In this document: positions 16,859-18,842 of the stretch, piece by piece | Layout of the letters: every line of letters starts with the position of its first letter | Position numbering within the stretch: the stretch's first letter is position 1 | From: Candidatus Falkowbacteria bacterium RIFOXYD12_FULL_34_57 | Lineage (GTDB): Bacteria; Patescibacteriota; Patescibacteriia; Patescibacteriales; UBA12075 | NCBI GenBank assembly: GCA_001780285.1 | Contig: MFGN01000026.1 | Coordinates: 1-40,765 of the forward strand | DNA: 40,765 nucleotides | Reading direction: 5' to 3' | The notes under the pieces: model-generated | Told to the model about the DNA's origin: nothing | The model's input: the letters and a program-made list of their open reading frames with translations, nothing else | The model's database searches: none | Translations under genes and position numbers: made by a program

Positions 16859-18247
16859 TTAAAATTTTTCACGGAAATATTTATCCAATTCATCAACCTG
16901 CACCCGCTCCTGTGCCATAGTATCCCTGTCCCGAACGGTTACTGTGTTATCTTTTTCAATCGTATCAAAATCAATAGTTACGCAGAAAGGGGTGCCGATT
17001 TCATCCTGCCGGCGGTAGCGCTTACCTACGTTGCCGTTATCGTCAAACTCGCACATATAATCCATTTTTAAAAGATCATAAATCTCGCGAGCCTTTTCAA
17101 CTAATTCCGGCTTGTTTTTTAACAATGGAAAAACTGCAATTTTAACCGGCGCCAATTTGCGTGGGAATTTCATCACAATACGCTCTCCGTCTTCCATCTT
17201 TTCTTCGGTATATGCTTCACAAAGCGCCGCCAAAACCGTCCGGCCTACGCCGACTGAGGATTCAATAATGTGCGGCACATATTTTTCACTCGTTTTCGGA
17301 TCTATGTAATTTAATTCTTGTCCCGAGAACTTGCTATGCTGCGACAAATCATAATTTCCTCGAGCATGCACTCCTTCAAGCTCTTTGAATCCAAACGGAT
17401 AATTGTATTCTATGTCATAAGCCTCTTTTGCATAAAAAACCAGATTTTCATGCTTATGCCACTTAATATTTTCCTCTTTAAACCCGAGGTTAAGATAATA
17501 TTGCCATCGCGCCTGGCGCAACTTCTCATATTCCTCCATTTCGTTTTCGGGATGCGTAAAATACTGCATTTCCATCTGTTCAAATTCACGAGTGCGAAAA
17601 ACGAACTGTCTGGCAGTAATTTCATTTCTAAAAGCCTTGCCGATTTGGGCAATCCCGAATGGAACTTTGACGCGCGCGGAATCCAGAATATTCTTATAGT
17701 TTATATAAATCCCCTGGCAGGTCTCCCCTCTTAAATACGAAGGTTCTTTATCCCAATCGCCGGTAAAATTACCCAGATTTGATTTTACCAGCAAGTTGAA
17801 TTTTTTAGCATCGGAAAAATCTGATTTGCCGCAATTTGGACATTTAATCTTTTCTTTATGTTCCGTAAATATTTTATTAATCTCTTCTTCGCTCATTTTT
17901 TCATCCGCTGCCGCCCCGACATCTTCCAATAAATGATCAACCCGCAAGCGCGCATGGCAGTTTTTACACTCTGCCAACGGGTCGGAAAAGCCGCCTACGT
18001 GTCCGGAGGCCTCCCATACCCGCGGATGCATAAATATGGAAGAATCCAGCCCGACTATATCATCGCGCAGCTGCACCATCGCGCGCCACCATTCGCGCTT
18101 GACGGCGTTTTCCAGTTCCACGCCATAAGGGCCGTAATCATAAACCGCGGCAAAACCGCCGTAAATTTCCGATGAAGGGTAAATAAAACCGCGCCTCTTG
18201 CACAAAGAAACTATCTTTTGCATTAAATCGTTTTGTTCTTTTTTCAT
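16859..18247 (-). CDS. glyS: Glycyl-tRNA synthetase (dimeric alpha2 type)
   Basis: CKRRGFIYPSSEIYGGFAAVYDYGPYGVELENAVKREWW, ASGHVGGFSDPL, GIAQIGKAFRNEITARQFVFRTREFEQMEMQYF. Confidence 0.96.
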   Translation of the reverse strand: MKKEQNDLMQKIVSLCKRRGFIYPSSEIYGGFAAVYDYGPYGVELENAVKREWWRAMVQLRDDIVGLDSSIFMHPRVWEASGHVGGFSDPLAECKNCHARLRVDHLLEDVGAAADEKMSEEEINKIFTEHKEKIKCPNCGKSDFSDAKKFNLLVKSNLGNFTGDWDKEPSYLRGETCQGIYINYKNILDSARVKVPFGIAQIGKAFRNEITARQFVFRTREFEQMEMQYFTHPENEMEEYEKLRQARWQYYLNLGFKEENIKWHKHENLVFYAKEAYDIEYNYPFGFKELEGVHARGNYDLSQHSKFSGQELNYIDPKTSEKYVPHIIESSVGVGRTVLAALCEAYTEEKMEDGERIVMKFPRKLAPVKIAVFPLLKNKPELVEKAREIYDLLKMDYMCEFDDNGNVGKRYRRQDEIGTPFCVTIDFDTIEKDNTVTVRDRDTMAQERVQVDELDKYFREKF

Positions 18248-18314
18248 GTGTTTATATACAGATCTACACGAATTTAAAATAAATACCCATAGATCATGAA
18301 TTAATAATAAAAAA

Positions 18315-18361
18315 ATCTCGTTCTAGTGTTATAAATATTTTTTATAACACTAGAACGAGAT
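18315..18361 (-). terminator. Intrinsic terminator of the T-box (21-bp perfect stem)
   Basis: ATCTCGTTCTAGTGTTATAAA-AAATA-TTTATAACACTAGAACGAGAT followed by T7 on the minus strand. Confidence 0.95.
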
Positions 18362-18481
18362 CTATTTAATAATAGAAGCCGCGGTTCCATCTAGTTTTCC
18401 CGATATTTATCAGGACACCTTAATTCATATCAATATATACAGGGTGCCAATCTCCCCATTGATATCGTTTAATTGTTAATT
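18315..18481 (-). promoter_or_regulatory. T-box riboswitch leader upstream of glyS
   Basis: Minus-strand TGGAACCGCGG core (18379-18389); antiterminator ACTAGA-TGGAACC-GCG...CGT-TCTAGT using the terminator 5' arm; Stem III-like hairpin TCCTGAT-AAAT-ATCGGGA (18398-18415); downstream glycyl-tRNA synthetase. Confidence 0.93.
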
Positions 18482-18487
18482 AAATTT

Positions 18488-18515
18488 ATTATAACAAAAT
18501 TTTTAAAAATGTCAA
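18488..18515 (-). promoter_or_regulatory. Sigma70-type promoter for the glyS leader
   Basis: Minus strand TTGACA - 16 nt - TATAAT, about 7 nt upstream of the leader. Confidence 0.8.
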
Positions 18516-18590: not shown

Positions 18591-18842
18591 ATGACGCATC
18601 AATATTGCACTCACAAAATTTTAATTTCCGAAAAAGAACACAAAATAATGCTAGACGGTGTTACAGAAACGGAAATTGAACTGATCGGACCGGACATGCA
18701 AAAAGATATTCAAAAAAATGACCTGGTAATCATGAAAGTAAACAAAGACGATAACGCTTGGATGGGCAAGGTGCTCTTCAGGGCAGTAAACAAAATAAAG
18801 ATTTTTGTGCATAATAACTACAAAAGCCAAACCGTCAGATAA
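18591..18842 (+). CDS. Hypothetical protein, 83 aa
   Basis: ORF preceded by AAGGAGAGG and followed by a terminator. Confidence 0.65.
   Translation: MTHQYCTHKILISEKEHKIMLDGVTETEIELIGPDMQKDIQKNDLVIMKVNKDDNAWMGKVLFRAVNKIKIFVHNNYKSQTVR

Follow-up and report, generated by a model that had tools for sequence, protein, structure and literature searches.

The 40,765-nucleotide (nt) stretch of contig MFGN01000026.1 analysed here (the window), from the genome of Candidatus Falkowbacteria bacterium RIFOXYD12_FULL_34_57, carries on its minus strand a leader that precedes glyS, the gene for a glycine--tRNA ligase. By its sequence, this leader is a complete transcriptional T-box, far beyond what chance would produce, and very probably it is a transcription-terminating tRNA-Gly T-box riboswitch cut down to a specifier hairpin and a discriminator. 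It joins a Stem I like that of class III T-boxes to a linker like that of class II, with neither the interdigitated double T-loop motif (IDTM) of classes I and II nor the S-turn of classes I, III and IV. The published four-class scheme (PMC10482949) contains no such combination.

The leader had been named a T-box in a sequence-only reading, and all the elements of one are present (Table 1). A TTGACA-16-TATAAT promoter, the T-box leader and glyS follow each other in that order, the leader occupying the gap between a divergent gene at 18591 and the glyS start at 18247; because the upstream gene is divergent, the terminator is not part of it. About 22 nt of AU-rich leader separate TATAAT from Stem I, which is made of a lower helix of 8 base pairs (bp; AUAUCAAU/AUUGAUAU), a 3' bulge of 6 nt (GUAUAU) and an apical helix of 4 bp. 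Directly 3' of Stem III stands AAA, so that the window sequence holds the complete RRRxG-Stem III-AA motif. In the antiterminator, the strands of A1 are ACUAGA (18395-18390) and UCUAGU (18354-18349). Its 3' half is at the same time the 5' arm of the terminator, whose arms (18361-18342 with 18334-18315) are followed by UUUUUUU; the two structures are mutually exclusive, and the transcriptional mode proposed for the leader stands. From Stem I through the end of the antiterminator, the element measures only about 117 nt.

Table 1. Parts of the leader and the gene downstream of it, in window positions.
Feature	Positions	Strand	Support
-35 box TTGACA	18510..18515	-	direct reading; promoter and 16-nt spacing shared by many homologues
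-10 box TATAAT	18488..18493	-	39 nt between its end and the specifier
Compact Stem I, 39 nt	18427..18465	-	sequence, apical-helix covariation, lower-helix permutation test
Apical specifier loop AGAUUGGCA, 9 nt	18445..18453	-	near-invariant among homologues
Specifier GGC (glycine), complementary to anticodon GCC	18446..18448	-	own tRNA-Gly(GCC); top loop complementarity
Linker GAAUU, 5 nt, at the Stem II position	18422..18426	-	sequence
Stem III purine string AAGGUG (RRRxG motif)	18416..18421	-	sequence; motif per PMC7583486; conserved in homologues
Stem III CCUGAUAAAUAUCGGG	18399..18414	-	covariation in homologues
Antiterminator, A1 ACUAGA/UCUAGU and A2 GCG/CGU, terminal G-U wobble	18349..18395	-	covariation; fold
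T box UGGAACCGCG = bulge UGGAACC + GCG	18380..18389	-	UGGA complementary to the UCCA 3' end of tRNA-Gly
Intrinsic terminator, about 20 bp and U-tract	18309..18361	-	sequence, folding
glyS, dimeric glycine--tRNA ligase, 462 aa	16859..18247	-	NCBIfam NF003211.1 (E=4.7e-186) and TIGR00389

A covariance model, R2, built from seven relatives with the window left out, recovers the window leader with 74.2 bits, at E=1.6e-15 within the window and E=6.1e-14 genome-wide. On 65 non-Patescibacteria loci, 338 kb in all, which surround glyS homologues from groups such as Bacteroidota and Spirochaetes, the model R1 gave no match better than E=0.4. The Rfam T-box leader family RF00230, suggested earlier as a check, shares the same T-box core and aligns with the leader from end to end, yet the score of 22.7 bits falls far under its gathering score of 93.

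Compensatory changes in homologues, another check named earlier, are present in the Stem I apical hairpin and, across the aligned homologues, in Stem III and A1. For the apical hairpin in 19 distinct leaders (L296 is identical to L042 and was counted with it once), 93.7% of the cells are paired, as against 70.9% with shuffled partners; 21 cells are doubly changed, where 6.3 are expected, and shifting the partners by one column worsens every pairing measure. The lower helix is specific to each leader, since none of 2000 partner permutations among 20 leaders pairs as well. Where the automatic pick missed the specifier hairpin, as in L348, L022 and L297, it was read by eye. The terminal G-U of A2 is the pair that senses the aminoacyl group, and it is invariant in all seven aligned homologues and present in the window. 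The folding energy of the leader lies 7.2 standard deviations below that of shuffled sequences, chiefly owing to the terminator. Matches to a miRNA and to other Rfam families at 18302-18374 were set aside as artefacts of this long, AT-rich hairpin.

The compact Stem I described earlier is confirmed, with a covarying apical hairpin, and the promoter bears on its size. Polymerase has to pass through most of a canonical, long Stem I before it reaches the specifier. A survey of promoter distances covered 27 glycine leaders, almost all of which belong to glyS or a glyS operon in a Patescibacteria genome and in which the specifier lies 52-119 nt ahead of the T box; TTGACA and TATAAT are both perfect in 13 of them. 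Across the 25 leaders in which a promoter can be recognized, 18-64 nt separate the -10 box from the specifier (45 nt or less in 24). Because the promoter is so near the specifier, a long Stem I cannot fit between them, and a longer one hidden elsewhere is ruled out. The loop itself reads AGAUUGGCA, with 9 nt, among relatives of the window and GAUUGGCU or GUUUGGCU, with 8 nt, in others, some of these loops counting as 6 nt if a closing G-U is included and as 8 nt otherwise. Below the hairpin, a kink-turn (K-turn; e.g., AGC-GUU-GA-...-GA-GCU) can be recognized by eye in L205, L212 and L245, all with 8-nt loops, and likewise in L376 and L378, which come from elsewhere in the phylum; the window's lineage has a 3'-side bulge instead.

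Stem II is absent from the window element, since only GAAUU stands between Stem I and RRRxG. The S-turn motif, present in 10 of 11 aspS leaders, was seen in only 3 of the 22 glyS leaders, and a candidate S-turn in the linker was rejected because the matches in glyS leaders all fall outside the Stem II position. The anomaly first pointed out, a compact Stem I, therefore holds but was understated, since Stem II is missing as well and the plan recurs across the phylum.

The proposal of GGC as the glycine specifier, made with its structural position uncertain, is likewise upheld, and that position is now settled: the codon lies in an apical loop over the GGGG/CCCU helix. GGC is cognate to the downstream glycine--tRNA ligase; in the L279 leader GGA replaces it, still a glycine codon. 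The genome's tRNA-Gly(GCC), with anticodon loop UUGCCAA and 3' end UCCA (U73), fits both the specifier and the discriminator contact UGGA, and among all tRNAs of the genome it is the one complementary to the loop over the longest run, 6 nt (UUGGCA with UGCCAA, positions 33-38). Two further T-boxes of the same genome can be set beside it, that of thrS (specifier ACC, UGGA; tRNA-Thr with U73) and that of aspS (specifier GAC, UGGC; tRNA-Asp with G73); each of them fits its own tRNA at the anticodon and also at the discriminator base. Extended pairing with the anticodon loop reaches 6 bp for Gly, 6 bp for Asp and 5 bp for Thr, and for the thrS and aspS loops too the cognate tRNA ranks top, with 5 and 6 bases, although thrS ties at 5 with tRNA-Gln(UUG).

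By analogy with the T-box paradigm, the leader would bind tRNA, discriminate its charging and regulate as follows. RNA polymerase would start about 30 nt ahead of the specifier, and the apical loop of Stem I would then offer GGC for pairing with the anticodon of tRNA-Gly(GCC). With uncharged tRNA, UCCA would pair with UGGA of the bulge, the antiterminator would be held and transcription would continue into glyS. With charged or absent tRNA, the 3' half of the antiterminator would join the far stabler terminator and transcription would stop. Predicted energies are -54.0 kcal/mol for the terminator fold and -32.8 kcal/mol with the antiterminator enforced, and a transcript cut off before the 3' arm of the terminator is predicted to fold as the antiterminator by default. 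Because the element has neither an elbow-binding IDTM nor a Stem II S-turn, capture of the tRNA would fall to the specifier loop and discriminator only. Extended pairing of UUGGCA with anticodon-loop bases 33-38 is proposed as a likely compensation for the missing contacts.

In the four-class scheme, class I has a long Stem I with IDTM together with Stem II; class II, the glycine class, is transcriptional, with a long Stem I with IDTM and no Stem II; class III has a short Stem I with an apical specifier, requires Stem II for function and is mostly translational; and class IV has an intermediate Stem I (PMC10482949). The IDTM, the Stem II S-turn or the two together strengthen tRNA binding (PMC10482949). 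The window element could be a class III ultrashort T-box, comparable to the actinobacterial ileS leaders of Nocardia and Mycobacterium, merely changed to transcriptional output. The short Stem I, the apical-loop specifier and the lack of an IDTM are class III features, the K-turn Stem I and 8-nt loops of L205, L212 and L245 resemble a class III Stem I, and in Patescibacteria the T-boxes of aspS and valS combine a class III-like form with transcriptional output. This reading is nevertheless improbable. Class III depends for its function on Stem II, which holds an S-turn and a IIA/B pseudoknot (PMC10482949), whereas only 5 nt precede the purine string here and none of the 22 glyS leaders has an S-turn at the Stem II position. 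The loop has 8-9 nt in the window and its relatives rather than the 5-6 nt of class III, although a closing G-U would bring it to 6 nt in some relatives, and the mostly translational output of that class differs from the intrinsic terminator of the window element.

Decay of a former T-box into a purely constitutive attenuator would account for two missing auxiliary tRNA contacts and a very strong terminator. Compensatory changes, however, maintain the stem and the loop in many lineages, the specifier and the discriminator both fit tRNA-Gly and the G-U sensor pair does not vary in the aligned homologues, which leaves decay a slim chance.

The class II glycine T-boxes, represented by glyQS of Bacillus subtilis and Geobacillus, share with the window element glycine specificity, transcriptional output, a single-stranded linker in place of Stem II (PMC10482949) and a discriminator made of RRRxG-Stem III-AA, a UGGA bulge and an A1/A2 antiterminator. 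A canonical member whose long Stem I had been overlooked, for example further upstream, would explain these likenesses, and the L379 glyS leader, from elsewhere in the phylum, does seem by eye to have a canonical distal Stem I. In the window, by contrast, Stem I has 39 nt and no IDTM, the perfect promoter ends 39 nt ahead of the specifier, this specifier sits in an apical loop on a covarying closing helix with no distal arm, and RF00230 gives only 22.7 bits; a class II identity is thus very unlikely. A pseudoknot between the specifier loop and GGUGUC (GGCACC/GGUGUC, six pairs including G-U), sensing something other than tRNA, can be drawn in the window but was rejected as scarcely credible, since GGYG, its downstream partner, is itself the conserved purine string RRRxG and shows no covariation with the loop, in which A and G each occur with C or U downstream.

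Against the reading of the leader as a minimal tRNA-Gly riboswitch stand the published view that, as a rule, a transcriptional T-box cannot capture tRNA fast enough without the IDTM (PMC7583486), the widely differing size of the lower Stem I among relatives and the selection of leaders for the alignments by motif, which favours look-alikes. The bases flanking the specifier in the loop also vary (e.g., UCGGC in L022), which speaks against the extended pairing.

It is possible, and is put forward tentatively, that these leaders form a fifth T-box class, minimal and transcriptional, without IDTM or Stem II and widespread in Patescibacteria, in which 5-6 bp of anticodon-loop pairing by a single apical loop replace the elbow and S-turn contacts. 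The open-access papers searched yielded no report of T-box riboswitches in Patescibacteria, the candidate phyla radiation (CPR) or Parcubacteria, nor of such an architecture, which is not proof of absence; TBDB looked for translational T-boxes in Actinobacteria only (PMC7778990). A conserved T-box family without IDTM or S-turn would make the minimal needs of RNA-RNA recognition of tRNA directly testable, the key question being how affinity and speed suffice without elbow or S-turn contacts. At its size, the element could offer structural studies or RNA engineering an especially small T-box.

T-box control appears common in a phylum that the T-box surveys consulted do not name. At E<=0.001, RF00230 has a match in 120 of 288 genomes of the class and exceeds its cut-off in 7 of them, so that its threshold overlooks nearly all T-boxes of this class of genomes. 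R1 matches 73 of 111 genomes of the order and 21 of 384 across the phylum, where R2 matches 34 of 384; many of these matches are thrS leaders, which have the same discriminator. The sampled loci contain 146 candidate leaders with antiterminator and terminator, among them 53 of thrS, 22 of glyS and 11 of aspS. By position, the element lies just upstream of glyS or its operon in 18 of 59 sampled genomes of the order, and all those inspected are compact. Compact and long forms both occur in the phylum, since at least one glyS leader, L379, appears long.

The Patescibacteria host raised earlier as a possibility is borne out, the nearest named GlyS relatives coming from Candidatus Paceibacterota, Parcubacteria, Kuenenbacteria and Nealsonbacteria; the host genome has 1.6 Mb and is 96.6% complete. 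The window GlyS is 77% similar to a protein of another family (G045) versus 47-67% to proteins of its own family, and this greater similarity across families hints at transfer of the gene.

In other leaders, a compact glycine T-box precedes a gene for a CyaB-like, DedA-like or unknown membrane protein (L027, L275, L282 and L307); glyS comes next in the first three, which suggests operons. Genes resembling GNAT-family acetyltransferases directly follow glycine or threonine T-boxes in L216, L227, L255, L257, L313 and L349. The aspS T-box of the host genome (L002, 1499-1665, minus strand) has a K-turn Stem I, AUUCC-CUU-GA-UUCCAG-[AUGUGACA]-CUGGAG-GA-GGAAU, with specifier GAC, and apparently lacks Stem II though it is not glycine-specific. 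In eight other aspS leaders (L171, L176, L180, L184, L194, L198, L200 and L230), the specifier hairpin shows AAC (asparagine), which suggests control by tRNA-Asn and a non-discriminating aspartyl-tRNA synthetase; these leaders carry Stem II S-turns and terminators and are hence class III-like but transcriptional. L001 (1470-1665, minus strand) and 48 of the 53 thrS leaders (e.g., L211, L214, L218, L221 and L223) present ACC in a covarying apical loop, mostly of 7 nt (CUACCAA). Most leaders of this type have no S-turn; GAUUG usually stands before the loop, and the second hairpin after it, ending in CUAAR, is possibly an undescribed Stem II-like domain.
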